This document shows, one piece after another, positions 2,090 through 14,592 of a DNA stretch of 22,126 bases. The first letter of the stretch is position 1; each line of letters starts with the position of its first letter. The DNA is from a virus. Position numbers and translations under genes: made by a program. The stretch lies in IMG/VR virus record IMGVR_UViG_3300008448_000743, positions 1 to 22,126 of that record; one strand, 5' to 3'. The notes beneath the pieces were generated by a model, which did no database searches, was not told where the DNA came from, and worked only from the letters and a program-made list of their open reading frames with translations.

Positions 2090-2916
2090 GTTATCTCCTC
2101 TAGAATATTGATTATTTCATTATTGATTTTATCTTTTTCAACATAATGAACAATGTCATGCTGTTGATAATTTCCTATTTTAAGTTCGCCCTTTCGATTT
2201 AAATAAAAACCCACATGATCGCTCCAGCAGTCAGCAGGCCATGGCCAATTCTGTATCATAGGTTTCATATGTATTACTCGAGGAAACTCTAGAGGATATG
2301 CAATGTCATCGGTAATATCTAATATTTTAGCTGCTAATGCGAATGCCTCGTCTGTGCCTAGAACACGAGGCTTATGATTCGACAAAAAAGCATTTGAGAA
2401 CTCTACAGGATTTTTTATAATATCTCTTCCTAGGTTAAAAAATTCTTTAGTTATCTCGCTGTCTTTTTTAAAAAAAGTGTATAGACTGTAAAGGTTCGGT
2501 AAATTATTCTTTGTAAAAGTCTTACGATAATGTTGATCTACCACAGTTTCACCTCTGTAGGTGTAAGTTTTATTAGCTACATATAATTCACTATGCTCAA
2601 TAAAGTACTCTACCCAATGACTGTAATCTCGCATAAACAACATATCTACATCTAGACATACAGTATATTCGAATGGGGTAAGTTGATCCATCCATGATCT
2701 ACCATTCCAAAATGTTTCTTGACTCCATTCTATAACGTGATCAAAAACCCAACTGCTGGTTAAATCATTAAGTTTTTGTTTGTTATCTATTACCAAAGCA
2801 ACTTGATCAAACCCGGGTCTCTGCGTGTTTTTTATGCTTAGTGCTAATGCATATGCCAACTGTAGGTAATTCACAGTTTCATGTTCCGCTACGACTAGTA
2901 GATATCCAAACTTCAT
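2077..2916 (-). CDS. Putative glycosyltransferase (GT8/nucleotide-sugar transferase-like)
   Basis: The 279-residue protein begins with a beta strand (FGYLLVVAE) followed by an alpha helix with LAYALALSIKNT, as in glycogenin/GT8-like enzymes. TPFEYTVCLDVDMLFM (80-95) carries a DVD at 89-91 after a hydrophobic strand, the expected DxD metal/donor site. LGTDEAFALAAKIL (186-199) fits the second conserved acidic region of such folds. HMKP (216-219) and the later H-rich stretch QQHDIVHYVEK fit the C-terminal metal-binding histidine region. The next gene upstream, 2913-3773, shares the same frame of motifs (LTPxxxTxxxDxD), so these are a second paralogue pair. It starts with an ATGA overlap and lacks a strong Shine-Dalgarno. 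Enzyme type is inferred from motifs and architecture, not from a search. Substrates are unknown. Confidence 0.72.
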   Translation of the reverse strand: MKFGYLLVVAEHETVNYLQLAYALALSIKNTQRPGFDQVALVIDNKQKLNDLTSSWVFDHVIEWSQETFWNGRSWMDQLTPFEYTVCLDVDMLFMRDYSHWVEYFIEHSELYVANKTYTYRGETVVDQHYRKTFTKNNLPNLYSLYTFFKKDSEITKEFFNLGRDIIKNPVEFSNAFLSNHKPRVLGTDEAFALAAKILDITDDIAYPLEFPRVIHMKPMIQNWPWPADCWSDHVGFYLNRKGELKIGNYQQHDIVHYVEKDKINNEIINILEEITWKK

Positions 2917-3773
2917 ATCAATTCCAACAATCGATCACTATGTCTTACTATGCTCTGCTTATTCATTATATGAATATCCAGATTCTGTATTGAAGCTGCA
3001 CAATAGTTGTCATTTAATTTCGGGGATACCAGCACAGTCAATTTACTGGCATCTACTGAGTGTAATATATCCCTATCTAATAATGTTAAAACCGGAGGCA
3101 AACATCCTATTGGCAACTGTTCGAAACCTCCTAATATATGCCTAGCAACACTAAATGCAATATCGTTTCTATATTGTTTTGAATCAAATCTATATGTGTC
3201 GGCGTAGTATTGATAATGATCTTTAATATGGCTAACAAGATCAAAAAACATTTTAGAATATGTATTTTTTGTAAACATCACTGTAGTGGCCCAATACAAT
3301 TTAACGCCTACGTCAGAAACATATCGGTCATGATACCCCATTCGTTGATTGTCGTATATATCGTTGATAGATTCTCCAATCATAACATCACTGTCTATGT
3401 CCCAATACTCTGATAATCTATTGGAAAATATAAGAAAATCTGCGTCAATTACCAGTGTTCGTTGATAAGGAGTAAGATCGTAGGCAGAATTTCTATTACC
3501 ATTAATGAATTGTACCACACTGCGTTCTGTGCCGTCATACAATCCTCTAAAGTTATTTGACCCAGGTCTAGCAACTATGAAAATATTTTCAAATACTGTC
3601 TTGGCCTTTTCGTAAATCTTAGATTCTATCATCCAATCTACCGTGGTTTGATCAGTAACTAATGACGCAGGTTGTCCGAGATGTTTCTTGGCCAACCCTC
3701 CAGAGATAATCGCCATTAATGCATAATCTACTGTGCGATTATTATGAGCGTAGATTAATATGCCTTTGATCAT
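2913..3773 (-). CDS. Putative glycosyltransferase (GT8/nucleotide-sugar transferase-like), paralogue of the following gene
   Basis: The 286-residue protein opens with MIKGILIYAHNN followed by a helix (YALMAIISGGLAKKHL) that aligns in layout with its neighbour at 2077-2916. LTPYQRTLVIDADFLIF (100-116) contains the putative DxD (DAD, 110-112). YRNDIAFSVARHIL (201-214) matches the neighbour's GTDEAFALAAKIL region. The C-terminus ends in IHIMNKQSIVRHSDRL, where the shared fold expects metal- or donor-binding histidine. Both ends overlap neighbours by ATGA, and no strong Shine-Dalgarno is present, so it depends on translation from the 116-residue gene upstream. The pair probably arose by tandem duplication and then diverged strongly. 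Function as a sugar transferase is likely; the molecule modified is not known. Confidence 0.7.
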   Translation of the reverse strand: MIKGILIYAHNNRTVDYALMAIISGGLAKKHLGQPASLVTDQTTVDWMIESKIYEKAKTVFENIFIVARPGSNNFRGLYDGTERSVVQFINGNRNSAYDLTPYQRTLVIDADFLIFSNRLSEYWDIDSDVMIGESINDIYDNQRMGYHDRYVSDVGVKLYWATTVMFTKNTYSKMFFDLVSHIKDHYQYYADTYRFDSKQYRNDIAFSVARHILGGFEQLPIGCLPPVLTLLDRDILHSVDASKLTVLVSPKLNDNYCAASIQNLDIHIMNKQSIVRHSDRLLELI

Positions 3774-4120
3774 TGTTCTAGTAATTTTTCTACTGATCTA
3801 CTTTTTTTGAGATTTTGATCTTGTTCAAAATATTCATTAGTAGCTTCAAAATATCTATCAAAGCATTGATCTCTAAACGTTGTTAGATCTTCAATTAGTA
3901 TAGGATTTTCGTTACTATCTAGCAGTACTACTCCCCCGATTCTTCCTTTAATCAATAACAATTCTACAAAAGTCAAAAGTGTTTGATTAATATGAAACAA
4001 CCCACCATTATACCCTAGTGTTAATTTGGCCGAGATTTTTTCTTTTAGAATCTTACGTTGGATTGAAAACGTCTGCCGGTAATTAGCAAACTCTAGAGCG
4101 TTTTTAAGTTGATCCTGCAT
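3770..4120 (-). CDS. Small conserved phage protein of unknown function, 116 residues
   Basis: The protein is mostly helical and charged: an N-terminal helix (LKNALEFANYRQT), a central hydrophobic helix (TLLTFVELLLIKG), a short beta hairpin (GVVLLDSNENPILIEDL) and a charged C-terminal helix ending SVEKLLEQ. It resembles short proteins of unknown role that I recall from T4-type marine phages, usually near structural genes. The central hydrophobic stretch is short and amphipathic, so a membrane segment is unlikely. The start is clear: AAGGAG lies 5 nt before the ATG. This Shine-Dalgarno is the 3' arm of an inverted repeat (4124-4136 with 4164-4176), and a late-promoter-like sequence lies in the loop, so its translation may be switched by which transcript is made. 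It is the first gene of the overlapping glycosyltransferase cassette, so its control could govern the whole cassette. Confidence 0.8.
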   Translation of the reverse strand: MQDQLKNALEFANYRQTFSIQRKILKEKISAKLTLGYNGGLFHINQTLLTFVELLLIKGRIGGVVLLDSNENPILIEDLTTFRDQCFDRYFEATNEYFEQDQNLKKSRSVEKLLEQ

Positions 4121-4123
4121 GCA

Positions 4124-4176
4124 TTCTCCTTGATTATCTGCGCACTTTATTTAGTGGCTGAACTAATCAAGGAAAA
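4124..4176 (-). repeat. Inverted repeat covering the ribosome binding site of the 116-residue gene
   Basis: The 10-base arms TCCTTGATTA (4127-4136) and TAATCAAGGA (4164-4173) are perfect reverse complements. In RNA the stem extends by one G-U and two A-U pairs to 4124-4136 with 4164-4176, giving 13 pairs. The 3' arm in the mRNA holds the Shine-Dalgarno of the 3770-4120 gene, and the 5' arm sits just after the stop of the 4179-5177 gene. The 27-base loop also contains a small CACT/AGTG hairpin around AAATAA. There is no U-run after the stem on either strand, so this is not a standard terminator. Confidence 0.6.
4148..4155 (-). promoter_or_regulatory. Candidate T4-type late promoter (ACTAAATA)
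   Basis: On the minus strand the octamer reads ACTAAATA, two mismatches from the T4 late core TATAAATA. It lies 28 nt before the ATG at 4120 and inside the loop of the inverted repeat 4124-4176. Initiation roughly 6 nt downstream, as for T4 late promoters, would make an mRNA that lacks the 5' arm of the repeat and so has a free ribosome site. An 8-base match is weak on its own; spacing shared with two other sites raises it. Confidence 0.35.
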
Positions 4177-4178
4177 AA

Positions 4179-5177
4179 TTATGGGGCGATAGCTGAGATC
4201 GTCACTGTGGGAAGTGTTACTGAAAAATTACCTAGGTTTAATGGCACTAATATTCCAGTGGCAAATAACAAACTCACTGATACTGTGAATGTACCGTCTA
4301 CTAAATCGTCTGGAGGGAACATTGCAGTGGTAGCTGTTTGAATGTTGCCTGGAGGAGCAATAGGTGCGATTCCTGGATCTACATAATTATCAACAAATTC
4401 TATATGCCATTCGCCCTGACGGGCTGAACCTGTAGAATTGTTACCTGATGTGGCATCTATGGTCCTAGCATATATCTTATAGGTGTTAGACCCATAAGGA
4501 CTAGAACCGCTCAACGAATACCATAACTGACGGCTATTGGTGCATCTGTACCAGTTTTGCCCATCGTTAGGACTAACCCCAGTACCGGGGTTATTTCCGC
4601 CATAAGTTTGCATGCCTGCATTGCTTAAAATTGAGTTCCACTGTGTATTTTGAGTTGTGGTGGAACCACCTGATCGACTTGCAGTAAATCTAATTTGTCC
4701 GCCACTGTTCCAAAAATATCTAGCTTGATCAGCATCTGGCCAGACAGCTGTGACCGTGCATTGTATGAGGCTGGTCCACGATGTACCATATATTCCCGGC
4801 CAAGTAGAAGACGATGGTGTTGCAGGAACATTGGTTGCAGATTGACTACCTGCCACTGTAAATCTATTAGAATTAATAGTATTAACTATAGCTGTGTATG
4901 AATCTACCGGAGCAGTAGATGAGTTAAATCTTACCTTCGCATTCTCTATCACTGTAACCGGTGTAGGTGCTGATCCAAAAATATGAGTCCATGCATTTAT
5001 GATATCATTGCGCAACTGGGTTATGTGCGTGACCGTGAGTTTGGTACCTTCTGCAACCGCAGAACTGTTTAGTGATTGTCCGTAGCCAAACGGTCCAGCC
5101 CCTGTGCCCAAAACATTAGCCACGGTGTTTCTAATTGTGTTGTAGTCTGCTACACGGATTTTGTCATTTACGGCCAT
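4179..5177 (-). CDS. Phage virion structural protein, paralogue of the preceding gene
   Basis: The 332-residue protein aligns along its length with the 302-residue product of 5213-6121. Shared points are an N-terminal helix-rich part with GTGxxxxGYGQ (24-34) and LRND/LRYDI (55-58), then ARYFWNSGGQIRF (152-164), SSPYGSNTY (225-233), NNSTG (246-250), NYVDP (264-268), FPPDDLVDGTFT (287-298) and a closing 'TVTISAI'. The ARYF(F/W)NSGG(x)IRF motif occurs, to my recollection, in tail or fibre-associated proteins of T4-type marine phages. The C-terminal 60 residues are hydrophobic and beta-rich, as in trimeric virion parts. No enzyme motif is visible. The upstream gap (5178-5212) holds a TAAATA element. 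The Shine-Dalgarno is poor (AAAAGACAATTATG). The likely role is a baseplate or fibre-attached virion component; the exact position is unknown. Confidence 0.75.
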   Translation of the reverse strand: MAVNDKIRVADYNTIRNTVANVLGTGAGPFGYGQSLNSSAVAEGTKLTVTHITQLRNDIINAWTHIFGSAPTPVTVIENAKVRFNSSTAPVDSYTAIVNTINSNRFTVAGSQSATNVPATPSSSTWPGIYGTSWTSLIQCTVTAVWPDADQARYFWNSGGQIRFTASRSGGSTTTQNTQWNSILSNAGMQTYGGNNPGTGVSPNDGQNWYRCTNSRQLWYSLSGSSPYGSNTYKIYARTIDATSGNNSTGSARQGEWHIEFVDNYVDPGIAPIAPPGNIQTATTAMFPPDDLVDGTFTVSVSLLFATGILVPLNLGNFSVTLPTVTISAIAP

Positions 5178-6122: not shown

Positions 6123-7922
6123 TTACAGCACCACTGATTGTATTAATTTTACATCTTCGTTGTCACTGGTTTCCATGGCTACAGCAAATACATCTAATCT
6201 ATCTTGCGCTACCTGTGCGCAACCTTGATCACCGGCAACTAATCTATCTCCTTTACGTACTGATCCTTTGACCTTGATTGGTACTCGACCCTTAAGTGCC
6301 ACGTAAACCCCGCCTTCTAGCTCACTGTTCATCATGTATGCTGGATTTTCACTGATCACTCCTATGGCTAGTTCGCCGTAGCTAGATGCGGTAACTTCGG
6401 CTGGACCCCCTATGACCATTACAGTGCCAACTTCGTATTCTGTGTCAGCTAGATATTTCTCTGCGAGATCTGCATACCGTGCTGATGTAGCGGTTCCTTG
6501 GAATAATACCGCTGAGATATTACCGCTGGAGTCTCTAGCCGCAATGCTATATGCGGTAGCAGTAAGTCTAGCGGTTCTGTACTTGGTACTGGTAGTTGCA
6601 TCATTCCATGCAGGATCTACTACAGCATCAGTTTTATCAATGAATGTCTTGTCAGTCTTATCTGCGATACCTACAAATTGGTTAGCCAGTATATTTCCTG
6701 AAGTATTTCTTACAGGTATAGTAGCTATTGCAGTACCTGGTACCGTAGCACTAGGATCTAGATCATTTAGCTTACTGGCATTAGTGGCTGCAGAAGCTGT
6801 ACCTGTAACTGATCCGGTTAAGGTTCCTACTATATTGGCTCCCGCAAATCCAATCTGTTTAGTTGCGGCATTTATCATTACTGTGTTATCTGAGGCCAAC
6901 ACATTGCCTGTATGAACTCCTAGAGAATTTCCTGTGACATTTCCTACAAGATTGCCAGTATGTGTGGTAGCGTAAACGTTGCTCCAACGACCTCCGTTGG
7001 CACCTAATGAGTAGGCATTGTCATTGCCAGGCACAACTCCTGTGCTGGTAATCACCGCGATGTCTCGTTCATCGGTAGTTTCAGTTACAGTAATGCGGAA
7101 TGTTATAGGGTTTCCTAGTCGATTTTCAACAATCACTTCGTCACCACCTTCAACACGCAGTCTAAAATCGTTACCATCACCTACAGTTAGGCCTGGATCA
7201 TAAAATTGTACTTCACCAGTGAATGAATTTTCACCTTGTTTGAGGTATTGATCTGCAGCAAAACCACCAAGGCGAGCTGCATTATTTGCTGTGCCCCACA
7301 TCACATAATCATCAGTACTTACTCCAGACTGAGATTTGGCCAAGGTAAACCCTTTCTTTATGACCGTGAAGTCATCGATTGTATTCTGTGCGTTGTCGAG
7401 GGTAAATGATGTTTTACTAAAAATTCCTATGACCTTGTCATCTGCTATTATTTTAAGTATAGTATGTGGACCCACCGCTGTGCTGACCGTTCCTTTAACC
7501 ACTGCTGCAGACACTATAGACGATCCTAGATCGGGACTGGCTTCTGGTCCAATAAGTGCAAACTCTGTGCCTGTCCATGCATACAATTGTTTGGCAGCAG
7601 AATCCCACCAAAAGTCACCAGTGCTTAAACCGCTGGGCGCAGTGGTGCTGACTTCTGCACCGCCTGCTAGTTTAAATCGAGAACCATCATAGAATTTTAA
7701 TTTTTTATTAGCACTATCGAACCAGATTTGCCCTGTGATTACCTTGGGAGGAGCAGTAGTGTTAGAAAAATTCTCTAAAAGATGTAGAAAGTTTTCATTC
7801 TGAACTTCGCCGTATCCCGCATAGTTTTTACCTACAAATCTTAAATCTGAGGTGGTGTCTATGGTCCCGTCTTCTACAGATACAAAAAAAGCACCGTTAA
7901 ATTTATCTACTTGATATGCCAT
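6123..7922 (-). CDS. Tail-fibre-like protein with shared N-terminal module and a possible self-processing C-terminus
   Basis: Of 599 residues, 1-128 are the module shared by four genes here: DGTIDT (18-23), NYAGYGE (33-39), NENFLHLLENF (42-52), GQIWFDS (64-70), TGDFWWD (101-107) and FALIGPE (121-127). The middle (200-480) is a repetitive low-complexity shaft with VTG/LTG turns and two related RNTSGN/RDSSGN units (405-410, 463-468). From about 480 a compact globular end starts: YADLAEKYLADTEYEVGTV (483-501), GVISENPAYMMN (521-532), VALKGRVPIKVKG (541-553) and KGDRLVAGDQG (557-567). That end recalls C-terminal domains that trim or chaperone trimeric phage fibres (peptidase G2-like), but I see no proven catalytic residue. 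GGAG lies 7 nt before the ATG. It is probably a side fibre or baseplate-attached spike used for host contact. Confidence 0.8.
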   Translation of the reverse strand: MAYQVDKFNGAFFVSVEDGTIDTTSDLRFVGKNYAGYGEVQNENFLHLLENFSNTTAPPKVITGQIWFDSANKKLKFYDGSRFKLAGGAEVSTTAPSGLSTGDFWWDSAAKQLYAWTGTEFALIGPEASPDLGSSIVSAAVVKGTVSTAVGPHTILKIIADDKVIGIFSKTSFTLDNAQNTIDDFTVIKKGFTLAKSQSGVSTDDYVMWGTANNAARLGGFAADQYLKQGENSFTGEVQFYDPGLTVGDGNDFRLRVEGGDEVIVENRLGNPITFRITVTETTDERDIAVITSTGVVPGNDNAYSLGANGGRWSNVYATTHTGNLVGNVTGNSLGVHTGNVLASDNTVMINAATKQIGFAGANIVGTLTGSVTGTASAATNASKLNDLDPSATVPGTAIATIPVRNTSGNILANQFVGIADKTDKTFIDKTDAVVDPAWNDATTSTKYRTARLTATAYSIAARDSSGNISAVLFQGTATSARYADLAEKYLADTEYEVGTVMVIGGPAEVTASSYGELAIGVISENPAYMMNSELEGGVYVALKGRVPIKVKGSVRKGDRLVAGDQGCAQVAQDRLDVFAVAMETSDNEDVKLIQSVVL

Positions 7923-7954
7923 TGATATACTCCGCTAATCATTATTATTACTTA

Positions 7955-8311
7955 TCAAACTATGCGAGCGGACGCGGCTTGGCGCTGCTGCTCGAGCGTT
8001 ATGTACTCTTCATCAGATAGACTGGTAGTAATATTCAGTGCTTTTTGTCGCAGATGTCGAAGAACTTTCCAATCTGTGCTATTTAAAAATTCACGTTCTT
8101 GCCCGTTTGCCAGTTCCTGTGCCTTTTGTGTTGCTACATTTGCAGCTACAGCTATTATAGTTCTACTGGCAACATCAAAATTATGTGTTTGCGCTCTAAG
8201 CTGTTCGGCTTGAGAATCTGTGATTTCCTGCACACTAACAGTGCTAGGAACACTGGGTAGATAATTTAATAGCGCAACTACGGTGTTGTTTTCTATACAG
8301 ATATAATGCAT
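7955..8311 (-). CDS. Tail fibre assembly chaperone-like protein, 118 residues
   Basis: The N-terminus (HYICIENNTVVALLNYLP) is a short beta-rich part, the middle is a long helix (AVAANVATQKAQELANGQ), and the C-terminus has the pattern REFLNSTDWKVLRH (73-86) followed by TTSLSDEEYITLEQQRQAA (95-113). That C-terminal pattern is common in tail fibre or tail assembly chaperone proteins of many phages. I chose ATG 8311 because GGAG (8318-8321) precedes it by 6 nt. An ATG four codons upstream (8323) lies inside the previous gene and has no such site. It sits directly between two fibre genes, as fibre chaperones usually do. Its likely task is to help trimerise one or both fibres, and it may or may not remain in the virion. 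Confidence 0.75.
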   Translation of the reverse strand: MHYICIENNTVVALLNYLPSVPSTVSVQEITDSQAEQLRAQTHNFDVASRTIIAVAANVATQKAQELANGQEREFLNSTDWKVLRHLRQKALNITTSLSDEEYITLEQQRQAASARIV

Positions 8312-8313
8312 GA

Positions 8314-10596
8314 TTAACTCCAAATGGCCAAATAGTTTGCTGCTGGGGTGCCATTCTGTTCTGTGTTCTGAACATATACTCTGATTCTATCGCTGAGATA
8401 TGAATACTGGCATCTTAATCTGTCATTTCCATCTACTCCACCGGCAAAAGCTATAAAATGTATAGAAGGAATAAATCCTACAATATTTGCCATGCTTTTG
8501 CCTGCAGGAGGAAATACATCAAAAAAGTTTGCGCCATTGTTAAAAGATCCCACTTGATTAGTAAATCCCGAGGTGCTAGACTGTTGGCCGCTGACGAAAG
8601 TGTACTGAGGTAACCTACTATCTACATAAGTTTTGGTGGTAGCATGATTGTCATTCACTGGGGCACCGACCAGTGTAAGATAACCAGTCATTGTATCGCC
8701 AGATTTAGATACTCTTGCAGTATCACTAGCTGTGATAGTAATGTTTGTGGTACCGTTGAATGCAACACCGTTAATGGTTCTTGCAGTTTGTAATTGTGTC
8801 GCAGATCCTGCGTTTCCGGACACTGTCCCAGAGACATTACCTATTAAGTTAGCAGTGATCGTGCCTGCGGCAAAATTGCCACTGGCGTCACGTGCTACAA
8901 CTTTGCTGACAGTATTGGTGGAGGTAGCATCTACAGCGATTGTTGCATCAACGATTCCATCGTAACTGGCTATAGCACCACTGGTGCTGGTATTAACTAG
9001 TGTAAGAAATGAACCCTTACGCAAAGGTTCTCTACTGATTGAAGCCCATGTAATTGAGCCTGCTTGTGCAGTTAATACATACCCAGCTGTGCCTAGTCCC
9101 AGCATTGATGTAGTTCCAGCAGCGGTTTGGAATGGAATTGCTCCTGCACCACCACCTGCTATATTTGTAGCTGTCGTGGCCAAGGTTGCTGTAGTTGCAT
9201 TCCCTAAGAAATTGTTGGCATAAATGTTGTTGAATTTATATCCTGTGATTCCAAGATTAGTTGTGTTGTCGCCTAGTACCGCAGGTGCATTAGGACCTCC
9301 TAACGAAAGTGCTGTGGCAGCATCTACGAATGATACATCGGGTCCGCTTGATCCCATATCAAAATTAAGTGTGCCTGTACTGGATCTTACGGTTGGCCTA
9401 CCAGAATCAACAAACATCTTAAGCTGACCAGAACTACCTATATTAACTCCGCTATCAGTAACATTTAAATTGATTAATGTTCCTAATTGTTGCAAACTAC
9501 TTTGTATTATGGTAGAGTTTAAAGTATCACCGGTTAGTGTATCAGCTGCTGCTGTTACAGTAATATTGCTGGTGCCATTGAAATTCACACCATTAATCTG
9601 TCTTGCTGTGGCCAACTGTGTAGCAGAGTTTGCATTTCCGGTGAGTGTGGCTCCTACAAATGTATTAGCCTGTACAATATTAAATGAACTTGTACCAGAG
9701 CTAGCAATAACATTACCAGTGACATTACCGACAAGATCCGCTGAAATAGTGCCTGCTGAAAATCCCCCCTCTGAATTTCTAGCTACTAATTTACCTACAA
9801 CATTTGAGGGAGTAGCATCTACACTCCATGTGGTCTCTGAACTTCCGTCAAAATCAGAACCAAAAATGTATGTGCCTCGAACTAATTTGTTTGTTGTAGA
9901 AGATTTTATAGTGACATTTTGTTGGCCGTCAAAAGGCGTGCCGTTGATATTCCTAGCAGTACTCAACCTATCTGCACTGGCAGAATTGCCTGTTATATCG
10001 CCTTTGATCTTAGCAGTGTTTGAAAGATTAATACCTGCTATCAACGTATTTTCAAACCCGGCCACTGAATTAGAAGAATTTATAGAAAACGCCTGTGCTG
10101 TACATATAGCAATAGCTGTTCCATTCGTTTCTAGAATTATTACAGGTTTGGGGTCTCCTACAGAATCGTCTAATGAGGTAGCTCTGGCTCTGGTTATTCC
10201 GAACCCGGCCACTGCTTCGGGACCAATAAATGTCCAAGCAGAACCTGTGTAAATCTTAAGTTGATTAGCGGCAGTGTCTAACCACAGTGCGCCTGCGTTA
10301 ATATCCGCAGGAGCGGTTGCACTTAAAATCGCAGCACCTATTGGATTCCAATTTGTACCATCATAAGCATAGGTCAAATTGGTAGTGGTATTAAACCAAA
10401 TCTGCCCCTGCAGTGGTCTTGAAGGTGGAAATTCATTGGCAAAATTTTCCAATAAAAACACAAAGTTTTCGTTCTGTGTTTCACCGTAACCCACATAGTT
10501 TCTACCAACTAGCCCCAGACTAGTAGAGGTATCAATAGTTCCATCTTCTAGAACTATTAACTGTGCCCCACTAAATTTATTTACTATATAGGCCAT
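8314..10596 (-). CDS. Tail-fibre-like protein with internal shaft repeats
   Basis: The 760-residue protein starts with the shared module (DGTIDT 18-23, NYVGYGE 33-39, NENFVFLLENF 42-52, GQIWFNT 64-70, WTFIGPE 121-127). The shaft has three copies of a TAR-INGxxFxG unit at about 213-230, 330-347 and 605-622, a repeat common in long tail fibres. Two longer duplicated units also occur: VARNSEGGFSAGTI (271-284) against VARDASGNFAAGTI (567-580), each followed by LxGNVxG. ATTKTYVDSRL (652-662), the fibre 'ATKxYVD' hinge, leads to a C-terminal domain of about 100 residues rich in aromatic residues, possibly the receptor-facing tip. AGGAG lies 8 nt before the ATG, and the assembly-chaperone-like gene follows after 2 nt. 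This makes it the best candidate for a main host-contact fibre. Confidence 0.85.
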   Translation of the reverse strand: MAYIVNKFSGAQLIVLEDGTIDTSTSLGLVGRNYVGYGETQNENFVFLLENFANEFPPSRPLQGQIWFNTTTNLTYAYDGTNWNPIGAAILSATAPADINAGALWLDTAANQLKIYTGSAWTFIGPEAVAGFGITRARATSLDDSVGDPKPVIILETNGTAIAICTAQAFSINSSNSVAGFENTLIAGINLSNTAKIKGDITGNSASADRLSTARNINGTPFDGQQNVTIKSSTTNKLVRGTYIFGSDFDGSSETTWSVDATPSNVVGKLVARNSEGGFSAGTISADLVGNVTGNVIASSGTSSFNIVQANTFVGATLTGNANSATQLATARQINGVNFNGTSNITVTAAADTLTGDTLNSTIIQSSLQQLGTLINLNVTDSGVNIGSSGQLKMFVDSGRPTVRSSTGTLNFDMGSSGPDVSFVDAATALSLGGPNAPAVLGDNTTNLGITGYKFNNIYANNFLGNATTATLATTATNIAGGGAGAIPFQTAAGTTSMLGLGTAGYVLTAQAGSITWASISREPLRKGSFLTLVNTSTSGAIASYDGIVDATIAVDATSTNTVSKVVARDASGNFAAGTITANLIGNVSGTVSGNAGSATQLQTARTINGVAFNGTTNITITASDTARVSKSGDTMTGYLTLVGAPVNDNHATTKTYVDSRLPQYTFVSGQQSSTSGFTNQVGSFNNGANFFDVFPPAGKSMANIVGFIPSIHFIAFAGGVDGNDRLRCQYSYLSDRIRVYVQNTEQNGTPAANYLAIWS
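8318..8321 (-). promoter_or_regulatory. Ribosome binding site that decides the start of the assembly-chaperone-like gene
   Basis: GGAG on the minus strand lies 6 nt before ATG 8311 and downstream of the alternative ATG at 8323, so it can serve only the shorter start. It overlaps the last sense codon and part of the stop region of the upstream fibre gene, which fits coupled translation. Confidence 0.6.
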
Positions 10597-10616
10597 TTAT
10601 GCCGCTCCTGTGTTCA

Positions 10617-12467
10617 TTATGGTGGTAAAGTAGAATCTGTCTGCCAGGTCCATGCACCTGACACAATTTGAAAGGTTTTAATAATTCTAGTAGTAGAAAC
10701 ACTTGCTGCTGCGATTGTTGCTGTAGGAAATGAAATACTAGTCACTGCCAACGAACTACTGCCAGATAGATCAGTGAGGAAAGGATTCGTGCTGATACTG
10801 GGAGGTAATGCATTTATGGCTAATGAGGTGCTGGAAGGATTTATCAGAGTACACAATATCCTTGCATAAGTGCCACTTCTAAATTCCGCTACAGGTGCAA
10901 GATTATTTAATACATTATTAATAATGTATGTGTTAGATTTACCATCAGATAAATCCATGCTGAATATCAATGGCCGAGATTCTATGGTATTGTCCACATA
11001 TTCTTTGGTCGCAGCATCCTGTTGGCTAACAGGATCCTGCATGCCTGTGATTCTCGGCGAGCCTATCAACGCAACGTTTCCTGTGCCGTCTGGTTCGAGT
11101 TCAATATCAAAATCTGTTGATACTGTGCTGATCCTATGATTTTCTAATCGCATCTGCGTCACTGGCGGTATTCCAGGACCAACGTTGACTACGTTTTGCG
11201 TACCAAATGCTGTAACACCCGGAATACTGGTAATTGCACTTCCAAGGCTATTGCCATCTATGACCTTGACTCCACCTATCTGTAACTGTTTACCTACTGC
11301 CAGATTTAAATCTTCGCTGACGTCAAAAACTCCAGTAGGAGGTGGCCCCTCGCTAGTGGACCTATACACTATTTCTTTGTCGTAGGAAGAAGAATCAGCA
11401 CCGGTTGATCTAATTATGATACCAGCACCAGTAGCCGTGGTTTCACTGGGTGCTGCCACATTGGCTAATGTTAGTGTTTTATCTTCAATGGTAACATTAG
11501 AAGTATTGATAGTGGTTGTTGTTCCTTCTACGGTGAGGTCACCTGCTACCACCAAACTGCCACCAACATTCATTGTGCTATCAATTTTTCCCGAATATAT
11601 ATCGACGATTCTTGAACTGGAATCTATTGCTATGGCATTTTCTAGATCGAGACCTTTTCTAACCTTTAGGAATAGATCTTTGTCGCTGGCGAAATTGGAT
11701 ACTTCTATATCTCCCGAGCTCACCAAGAGATTCATCTGATTGCCTGATCCTATCACAATACCGGCATCTACACCAACAGATACCTGTCCATTAAAAGTAT
11801 TTGATGTGTCTCTTCGGGCATATGTGGTGGCTACCGCACCCCCTAACTGTTCGGAGTTGGTGCAGGTTATACGGAATTTTATGTTAGCTAATGTCCCTGC
11901 GTTAAACCCAGGTTCTATATTACCGCTGAATCCGATGATAGCTATTTTAGGTGTAAAACTGTCTTTGGCAAAAATTCCTAGTAATATACCGTTGTTATAA
12001 AGATATGTTACAACTCTAGTTTGATTCAGGGTGTCTAAAATGCTGTCAACTTCTAATCCGCTTTTACCTTGTGCTGTGGAATATGCAGGTCCGATCAATA
12101 TGGGCTGTGTTCCATCGAAGAAATATAACTGCGCACCTACATCATCGAACCACAGGTCACCTATGCTTAATGTAACAGGCTGTGTGCTAGAAACAGTGGC
12201 AGAACTCACTGGAATGAAAACAGATCCATTATACACCTTAAGTTTGTTTTCTGCACTATCAAACCAAACCTGACCCTTTAGTGGGTGTAGCGGTCGTGTG
12301 GTGCTGGCAAAGTTTTCTAGAAGTTTCACTAGATTTTCATTAAATGCTTCACCAAATCCACTGTAATTTTTGCCTATCAAAGTAAGGTCAGTGGATAATG
12401 TGTCTATCTGCCCATCGGCCACTGTGGCTACTATAGTTCCGTCAGTTTTGTTTATTTGATATGCCAT
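10617..12467 (-). CDS. Tail-fibre-like protein with DAATKxYVD hinge
   Basis: The 616-residue protein has the shared N-terminal module (DGQIDT 18-23, NYSGFGE 34-40, NENLVKLLENF 43-53, GQVWFDS 65-71, GDLWFDD 103-109, LIGPA 124-128). The middle has a known fibre unit: GGSLVVAGDLTVEGTTTTIN (302-321) followed by TIEDKTLTLAN (326-336), as in many cyanophage fibre proteins. TGMQDPVSQQDAATKEYVDN (474-493) marks the hinge before the C-terminal domain of about 120 residues, which is beta-rich, S/T-rich and ends WTWQTDSTLPP. AGAGAA (12473-12478) precedes the ATG by 5 nt. It shares a layout with the other three fibre genes but no C-terminal similarity that I can see. A structural fibre role is well supported; its receptor is unknown. 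Confidence 0.82.
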   Translation of the reverse strand: MAYQINKTDGTIVATVADGQIDTLSTDLTLIGKNYSGFGEAFNENLVKLLENFASTTRPLHPLKGQVWFDSAENKLKVYNGSVFIPVSSATVSSTQPVTLSIGDLWFDDVGAQLYFFDGTQPILIGPAYSTAQGKSGLEVDSILDTLNQTRVVTYLYNNGILLGIFAKDSFTPKIAIIGFSGNIEPGFNAGTLANIKFRITCTNSEQLGGAVATTYARRDTSNTFNGQVSVGVDAGIVIGSGNQMNLLVSSGDIEVSNFASDKDLFLKVRKGLDLENAIAIDSSSRIVDIYSGKIDSTMNVGGSLVVAGDLTVEGTTTTINTSNVTIEDKTLTLANVAAPSETTATGAGIIIRSTGADSSSYDKEIVYRSTSEGPPPTGVFDVSEDLNLAVGKQLQIGGVKVIDGNSLGSAITSIPGVTAFGTQNVVNVGPGIPPVTQMRLENHRISTVSTDFDIELEPDGTGNVALIGSPRITGMQDPVSQQDAATKEYVDNTIESRPLIFSMDLSDGKSNTYIINNVLNNLAPVAEFRSGTYARILCTLINPSSTSLAINALPPSISTNPFLTDLSGSSSLAVTSISFPTATIAAASVSTTRIIKTFQIVSGAWTWQTDSTLPP

Positions 12468-12480
12468 TCTTGTTCTCTAA

Positions 12481-14592
12481 TTAAAATAACGGTGGTCCAG
12501 ATCTAATAATATAATTTATTGTTAGAAATGGATTCATAATACCTATTGGTGTACTCAACGTAGTCAGAGCTGGTTTTTTTATTCCGCCTGAATCTTTTAG
12601 ATACTGTGCTTGGCCAGGAGCAGTTGGTCCTAGTCCTGTTGTCGCTGCAGGATCGATAGTTGTGGTCACAGCTACAGCCGAATAATCTTGTGCACCAGAA
12701 CTTAATGTATGACTATGCTCTGGTAAATTTGCTAGTGTGAGTGTTGCCGAACTCTGACCGGCATCGCCTCCTAGGGTAGTGGCTTTTACGTCGGGCACAC
12801 GTCCTGTCGTACCTCCACCGGCATCTACAAATCCGCCTGTGACGATTGGCACTGTTCCGGCGTTGTCCATATTGTCCTTGCCTAAGGCAAATCTTCCTCT
12901 AAGATCCGGCAGTCTAAAAGTATTCACTCCTATTAAAACTGCTATACCATTATATGTTGTACCTATGACGTCATATAGGGCTGAAAATTTTGTTCTTTCA
13001 ACTTCCGATCCGTCGCAAAATAAAAATCCGTATGGTGCGGTTGCGCCGGCATAAGGAATGATTCCGCCGATTGGAATACCTAGATCTCCTACGAATGTGT
13101 CTCTAGTCTGTTTTAATAAACCCGATGATGCTAATGCCGCTTCACTGGCCCTATATGTAAGCACAAAATCAGTAGGCTTAGATACATTCGGAAAGGGTTG
13201 ATCTTTACTTACAATGATATTAGCAGTCAACGATGTATTGAATATTTTGGTGTAACTTCCTGTCTGCCCGTCAAACTGCACAGCTGGACTTATCACATCG
13301 CCAGTCAATTGAAAACTGGTGATATTAGTAAGACTGGTAGCGGTGTTGGCATTACCGCTGATATTTCCAGACAAAATACCTTGTATATCGTCTGCTATGA
13401 TTGTTTTGGCTCTGATTGTCTTCCAACGTTTAAGATTAGTACCTAGATCATACAGTTCGGTAGTCTTTGGTTGTAGATTATTGACCTGTGATGTACCTGT
13501 GATATCGACTCCGTCGCCTACTATGAGATTTTTAGAAATAGCAGCACCGCCGGCAGTCCTTAAACTTCCATTGTTTAGATTAGTGCTGGCAGTATTGTTT
13601 GTGATTATGATTGAACCAGTTAAAGTAAGGCTGCCGTCAATGTCTAGGGCCTGGTTAGGACTTGCCTGATTTATACCTACTTTGTTGTCCACTACTTTTA
13701 AAATTGTTGACGGAATGCCATTCCGATTGGTTTGAATATCGATAGAACTACCAGCCGCACTGTTGTAGATTTTTGCTGCTGTGGATGTAGTACCAATATT
13801 GAATGTGCCATCGACACCGACCGTAACCCCGTTATTGTTTCTTACATTAAATGCAAAATCAGTAGTATTAATAGTGTTAGATCTTAGGAACTTTCCCGAT
13901 TCTACTTCAACTCCGCCAACACTCAATGCATTAGCCCGAGTGGCGGTTCCGAATAATATTGGTTCAAACCCCCCAACAAATTCTGCTATTTCAGGCGCCG
14001 TACTTGGGTTAGATATGTTAATTCCAGAACGTACAACATCGAAACCAGATATAATGGTCTTAGGAGTAAAGCTGTCCTTGCTAAAAATAATAACTGGTAT
14101 ATCTGCAATGTAGAAAACAAGAATAAATCTATCAATATTATCGGAATCTGCGATCTTTTCTACCACAGGACCGTATCGTAATCCGTCAACAGCACTTTCC
14201 GATGGTCCTACCAATATCCAACGTGAGCCTGTGAAAATTCTTAGCTGTTGATTAGTAGTGTCTACCCATAATTCTCCTACCTTACTAGACTCTACCGATG
14301 GCTCGCTTACACCTTTTTGTATGCCTGAAGCTGCTTTCCATGCAGTATTATCCCATATTTGAAGAACTCCGTCAGTACTATTATACCAAAGCTGCCCTTC
14401 TACAGGGTTTATTGGTTCATCAGCGGAAGCAAAATTTTCTAGTAAAGCCAAAAAGTTTTCTGCAATAATCTTGCCATACCCCGTAACATTTCTACCCGGA
14501 AACGCTAGACTCGTATCTGTACTAGAAGTATTATCAAACACTGTGATGGGTGTTTTATTTTCTTTATCTGTAAAATTAACTGAATATGGCAT
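12481..14592 (-). CDS. Short-tail-fibre-like protein with phage tail collar domain
   Basis: The 703-residue protein has the most diverged copy of the shared N-terminal module (GRNVTGYGKIIAENFLALL at 33-51, GQLWYNS 66-72, GELWVDT 106-112, WILVGP 125-130). KVGINQASPNQALDIDGSLT (304-323) is a unit often found in fibre shafts. IPIGGIIPYAG (506-516), PYGFLFCDGSEV (520-531), NTFRLPDLRGRFALGKDNM (557-575), LPEHSHTL (622-629) and MNPFLTINYIIRSG (686-699) together form a tail collar domain (Pfam PF07484), as in the T4 short tail fibre gp12 and similar tips. HSH fits the metal-binding histidines seen in such tips. GAGGT lies 8 nt before the ATG, within the end of the upstream gene. Its likely role is a baseplate short fibre or fibre tip for irreversible binding. 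Confidence 0.88.
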   Translation of the reverse strand: MPYSVNFTDKENKTPITVFDNTSSTDTSLAFPGRNVTGYGKIIAENFLALLENFASADEPINPVEGQLWYNSTDGVLQIWDNTAWKAASGIQKGVSEPSVESSKVGELWVDTTNQQLRIFTGSRWILVGPSESAVDGLRYGPVVEKIADSDNIDRFILVFYIADIPVIIFSKDSFTPKTIISGFDVVRSGINISNPSTAPEIAEFVGGFEPILFGTATRANALSVGGVEVESGKFLRSNTINTTDFAFNVRNNNGVTVGVDGTFNIGTTSTAAKIYNSAAGSSIDIQTNRNGIPSTILKVVDNKVGINQASPNQALDIDGSLTLTGSIIITNNTASTNLNNGSLRTAGGAAISKNLIVGDGVDITGTSQVNNLQPKTTELYDLGTNLKRWKTIRAKTIIADDIQGILSGNISGNANTATSLTNITSFQLTGDVISPAVQFDGQTGSYTKIFNTSLTANIIVSKDQPFPNVSKPTDFVLTYRASEAALASSGLLKQTRDTFVGDLGIPIGGIIPYAGATAPYGFLFCDGSEVERTKFSALYDVIGTTYNGIAVLIGVNTFRLPDLRGRFALGKDNMDNAGTVPIVTGGFVDAGGGTTGRVPDVKATTLGGDAGQSSATLTLANLPEHSHTLSSGAQDYSAVAVTTTIDPAATTGLGPTAPGQAQYLKDSGGIKKPALTTLSTPIGIMNPFLTINYIIRSGPPLF

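Follow-up and report, generated by a model that had tools for sequence, protein, structure and literature searches.

The window analysed here is the whole 22,126-nt stretch of the viral record IMGVR_UViG_3300008448_000743 in IMG/VR. On its minus strand, an operon opens with a conserved gene for a 116-aa protein (3770-4120), followed by a 286-aa GT8-like putative glycosyltransferase of predicted GT-A fold (2913-3773; 4-nt overlap with the 116-aa gene), a 279-aa probable glycosyltransferase with an invariant DxD (D89/D91; 2077-2916), a 205-aa protein (1472-2089), and a 295-aa possible glycosyltransferase with an invariant DAD (D63/D65; 594-1481). The order 116-286-279-205-~300 aa, with overlaps of mostly 4 nt, is kept in the relatives whose sequence reaches far enough. 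Searches of Pfam and PHROG with the 116-aa family gave no match at a threshold of E 0.001; the predicted fold of the window's protein consists of long helices and two beta hairpins, and weakly resembles phage DUF4376 proteins (Foldseek E 0.002-0.02; no Pfam match). The high-confidence predicted structure of the 286-aa protein gave Foldseek matches to glycogenin, UGGT, and LgtC, its fold being nearest to glycogenin (VIA Z 17.5) and LgtC. Sequence-profile support is weak, with one family member matching Glyco_transf_8 at 4.5e-5, and D110/D112 are invariant across the family; the modeled fold and the DxD together point to a GT8-like putative enzyme. No convincing database match was found for the 279-aa protein and none for the 295-aa protein, for which the DxD-like motifs are only suggestive of glycosyltransferases. 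The initial annotation had proposed that one switch could control an overlapping sugar-transfer cassette whose later genes lack strong ribosome sites. The conserved overlapping operon and the predicted GT8-like fold agree with the first part; the second part applies to the first two junctions, which in the window are 4-nt overlaps with no Shine-Dalgarno (SD) match (the first also mostly lacks an SD in relatives), but not to the 205-aa gene, which is preceded by GAGG in near relatives.

Upstream of the operon, on the same strand, lies a 332-aa gene (4179-5177), the source of read-through RNA considered below, and relatives have a similarly long gene at the corresponding position. Farther upstream (6123-14592), the window encodes four tail-fibre-like proteins (599, 760, 616, and 703 aa) with similar N-termini (MAY..NK..GT...DG.IDT...). 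They apparently form a tandem paralogous family, and matching gene lengths recur in the long relatives.

The leader of the 116-aa gene (minus strand, TTTTTTCCTTGATTAGTTCAGCCACTAAATAAAGTGCGCAGATAATCAAGGAGAATGC-ATG, with the start codon at 4118-4120) contains an inverted repeat of two 13-nt arms, identified by repeat finding and RNA folding. The 5' arm or anti-SD (UUUUCCUUGAUUA, 4164-4176) lies directly 3' of the stop codon of the 332-aa gene, which occupies 4179-4181 and thus ends 2 nt before it, and the 3' arm (UAAUCAAGGAGAA, 4124-4136) includes the ribosome site, with the SD AAGGAG at 4126-4131. The repeat finder reported the arms as 92% complementary and 27 nt apart; in minus-strand RNA they form 12 Watson-Crick pairs and one G-U pair. 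The predicted fold is exactly this stem, with an additional CACU/AGUG hairpin around AAAUAA in the loop, confirming the 13-pair repeat over AAGGAG that had been noted from the sequence. A T4-type late promoter box (ACTAAATA, 4148-4155) is located within the loop, as had also been noted, and its CTAAATA (4148-4154) is the only one in the window. In T4 late promoters the TATA box precedes the start by about one helical turn (PMC2988020), and on this spacing we placed the predicted start of the late transcript at 4142, about 6 nt past the box. An intrinsic terminator was considered and rejected, as the minus strand has no U-run 3' of the 3' arm and the plus strand has an A-run, not a T-run; an Rfam search gave no match. 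The leader fold has a z of -2.0 against shuffles (7 of 200 shuffles equally stable). Dinucleotide-shuffled windows contain about 1.0 such repeat each (13 nt, ≤1 mismatch, 3-40 nt loop), and a 13-nt repeat alone is not significant by count in a 22-kb window. We therefore take the hairpin as real on two other grounds, namely that it covers the SD and that relatives conserve it.

One scan of IMG/VR found at least 97 relatives of the 116-aa protein, and another that used alignments found at least 379. Among 50,697 phage records, no cultured relative was detected by tblastn of the 116-aa or 279-aa protein or by DNA match, and the tail sheath of one long relative had its nearest matches in jumbo phages, PA5oct among them (~56% identity across a quarter of the query). 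Of 13 long relatives, 12 encode the gp55 late sigma (phrog_234, identified as gp55 from T4 itself); the one without it is a 46-kb fragment. In three long relatives (280, 199, and 188 kb), ATAAATA showed the strongest enrichment of any heptamer upstream of genes, at 15-23 fold. For comparison of leaders, 77 distinct sequences were collapsed into 44 groups sharing no more than 85% identity, and TAAATA begins 29-39 nt before the ATG in all 77. The phages are a large set of uncultured T4-like phages in which the proposed switch is widely conserved.

The segment upstream of the box diverges strongly between groups and, in most of them, is the complement of the local ribosome site; arm and ribosome-site pairs include CTCCTATTAA/TTAATAGGAG in L074, AATTTCTTCAG/CTGGAGAAGTT in L076, TTTTTTTTCC/GGAAAAAAAA in L077, and GTTCTC/GAGAAC in L056. 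We compared own and swapped arms by the duplex energy between the 45 nt upstream of the box and the leader's final 22 nt together with the ATG. Across the 44 groups, own arms paired at a mean of -14.4 kcal/mol versus -9.3 kcal/mol for swapped arms, and none of 100,000 permutations reached the observed sum. When kinship was thinned such that the 28-nt segments upstream of the box were less than 70, 60, 55, and 50% identical (37, 22, 19, and 12 groups), none of 50,000 permutations reached the own-arm value in any set. Individually, 27 of the 44 groups were significant against shuffles of the 5' segment (P < 0.05) and 17 were not, with pairing no better than shuffles in L047, L049, L075, L091, L121, and L133. 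The initial annotation had expected compensatory changes in the two arms, and in fixed register this expectation failed: covariation among 20 related leaders was not significant, since the 3' arm is nearly constant in this set and the 5' arm slips to other registers. Conservation is seen only once the partner is left free to move, so that pairing is maintained through shift and replacement of the arm and not through paired substitutions in a fixed register. A chance hairpin over an ordinary late promoter would fit the frequency of 13-nt repeats in shuffled windows and the negative covariation, yet it is contradicted by the arm-swap results in 44, 37, 22, 19, and 12 groups and by the negative outcome at two other late genes (below), and is by sequence very unlikely.

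Sliding the tested segment along the leader confined the pairing signal to the stretch from -28 to about +2, counted from the box. No signal was detected farther upstream, nor between the box and the ribosome site, which is the leader of the late transcript (the last rows of this test are artefacts of overlap with the target), and pairing with coding-sequence windows gave none. The 5' arm would thus lie outside the promoter's own transcript, as had been proposed. The pairing target includes the SD (12-nt targets from -26 to -6). These data also bear on the idea that the arms have another role, for example in RNase processing or mRNA stability, or in the DNA as an inverted repeat recognised by a regulator of the late promoter. 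Arms on both sides of a promoter, and a cognate signal that is also seen on the antisense strand (z = -9.1), are what such a role would lead one to expect. However, the sense signal is stronger (z = -12.2) and its pairing includes 52 G-U pairs out of 652, the SD is involved, and the arm sequence is not kept as a protein site would require, leaving this explanation quite improbable.

Late promoters do not in general come with an upstream arm that pairs with the SD. Among the genes with a late box in the three long relatives (42, 26, and 28 genes), the mean pairing z is about 0, whereas the 116-aa gene stands at -3.5, -2.9, and -3.2, respectively. Arm-swap tests were likewise negative for the leaders of the tail sheath gene (21 groups, z = -1.5) and the baseplate hub gene (28 groups, z = +1.75), control sets that are small after identity thinning (7 and 3 groups, respectively). 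The baseplate hub gene, suggested as a second case by genome G002, was rejected since its relatives show no arm signal at this z of +1.75. A methyltransferase-like gene (phrog_8156; L165:18178-19332, equal to G002:58178-59332) has a late box and an upstream segment that pairs with its SD at -17.4 kcal/mol (P = 0.03), and is a possible second case of the switch on this sequence evidence.

Two features of the control leaders were observed in passing. Baseplate hub leaders (phrog_150; L201-L280, e.g., L222 and L207) share a conserved box TATAAATAC, followed about 15-25 nt on by GTATTTAT, which abuts the SD (GGAGA), such that the box itself and the pre-SD sequence are inverted repeats of each other; read on the opposite strand, the repeat gives a late box as well. 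T4 gene 26 is also listed as structured at its ribosome-binding site (RBS) (PMC2988022). In the tail sheath leaders (L281-L360), a long constant stretch, GCTAAATAWTATGAGCAACTATTACCAGGAGA, runs from the late box to the SD and is conserved beyond the needs of a promoter and an SD alone.

We folded both RNA forms, as the initial annotation had suggested, and the predictions agreed with its proposal. The SD of the window had an unpaired probability of about 0.003 in the read-through RNA and of 0.35-0.59 in RNA from the predicted start, the range depending on the amount of coding sequence folded. Across the 44 groups, the predicted mean was 0.17 for read-through versus 0.54 for promoter-started RNA, with the SD more open in the latter in 39 groups; in L077, L097, and L113, promoter-started RNA was also predicted to be largely closed. 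The same method applied to T4 gene e (AF158101) gave 0.0006 versus 0.58. Because the anti-SD lies upstream of or at the box and none lies downstream, RNA from the internal promoter should lack the 5' arm and have an accessible ribosome site.

The source of the read-through RNA was examined in the three long relatives, where a same-strand run extends 32-34 kb upstream of the operon and includes counterparts of the window's tail-fibre-like genes. This run holds 4-5 further late boxes and, by a search for sigma70-like consensus sites only, none of the latter, versus 14-30 elsewhere on that strand. The RNA that would be silenced is therefore probably itself late read-through, although a different type of early promoter, or early read-through at a low level, may also supply it.

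The position of the upstream stop codon, 55-65 nt before the ATG in most groups, raises translational coupling, the strongest rival: the hairpin would silence the operon until translation of the 332-aa gene is completed, when the ribosome at its stop codon would cover the anti-SD and free the ribosome site, and the late box would be separate, sharing the short intergenic space by chance. In the window, the anti-SD lies 5-10 nt past the stop, within reach of a terminating ribosome. Among the 44 groups, however, it falls inside the upstream ORF in only 3; in 10 it follows the stop by 1-9 nt and in 31 by more (median 10.5). Its place is not fixed relative to the stop but is always just upstream of the late box, and these counts indicate that the arrangement follows the promoter more closely than the stop. 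Coupling as the explanation thus seems unlikely, although the two mechanisms are compatible and not exclusive.

We consider a switch that depends on transcript origin, of the kind known from T4 gene e and heading the glycosyltransferase operon, to be the likely explanation. Read-through RNA from the upstream tail genes would carry both arms, whose pairing would bury the SD of the 116-aa gene, leaving the overlapping operon poorly translated. RNA polymerase with the phage late sigma would start at the TAAATA box in the loop, yielding RNA without the 5' arm and with an open ribosome site, from which the 116-aa protein and the products of the overlapping, probably translationally coupled, glycosyltransferase genes could be made. 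The operon would thereby be uncoupled from the upstream tail operon and follow its own late promoter. Computation shows the hairpin, the box, the upstream-only anti-SD, the pairing kept despite changing arms, the late sigma, and the operon structure; we infer the promoter activity of the box, the repression of translation by the hairpin, and the purpose that this serves for the phage. A more tentative proposal, to which we give slightly less than even weight, is that the switch separates two kinds of late RNA, not early from late, and insulates the glycosyltransferase operon next to the tail genes against transcripts running on from the tail operon before it, a use kept across a broad uncultured clade.

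The closest known system is T4 gene e (lysozyme), in which a late promoter (TATAAATA) lies inside an RBS-sequestering hairpin, such that early read-through RNA is silent and promoter-started RNA is open (PMC3014915). The initial comparison with gene e holds for this promoter-in-hairpin architecture, and the predicted accessibilities are similar, but the silencing of early RNA is not supported here, as the upstream run in the three long relatives has late, not early, promoter motifs and no sigma70-like consensus site. Moreover, the gene controlled in T4 serves lysis, whereas the proposed switch here stands before a glycosyltransferase operon adjoining the tail genes and is predicted by computation; that of gene e has been tested experimentally. 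An RBS hidden by RNA structure also occurs in the leaders of T4 soc, 49, I-TevI/II/III, and segB and of Aeh1 mobE (PMC3014915, PMC2988022). The homing endonuclease leaders are alike in that their late RNA lacks the 5' arm (PMC3014915, PMC2988022), but the genes of the intron endonucleases lie within transcription units that are early or middle, while the gene described here is the first of a conserved cassette of several genes in a region of late structural genes, with a switch kept across many diverged phages; its read-through RNA is probably late, unlike that of I-TevI (PMC2988022). The T4 baseplate genes 25 and 26 are reported to have inhibitory structure at the initiation region (PMC2988022), and the portion of that source dealing with them does not describe a promoter-in-loop switch. 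Our search of the literature available to us found no such switch at a phage glycosyltransferase operon and no description of this promoter-in-hairpin arrangement being used to shield an operon from late read-through. So far, the promoter-in-hairpin switch has been known from single genes of T4-type phages, the gene e leader being present also in close T4 relatives. Here, it can be traced through 44 diverged groups in which arms are replaced and pairing is kept, pointing to strong selection for the device, and the comparison of own and swapped arms offers a sequence test able to find more such switches. It also raises the question of why a late-region operon should be shielded from read-through of its late neighbours. 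Together, these comparisons describe a device known from T4 in a new and unusually well conserved case, possibly put to a different use.
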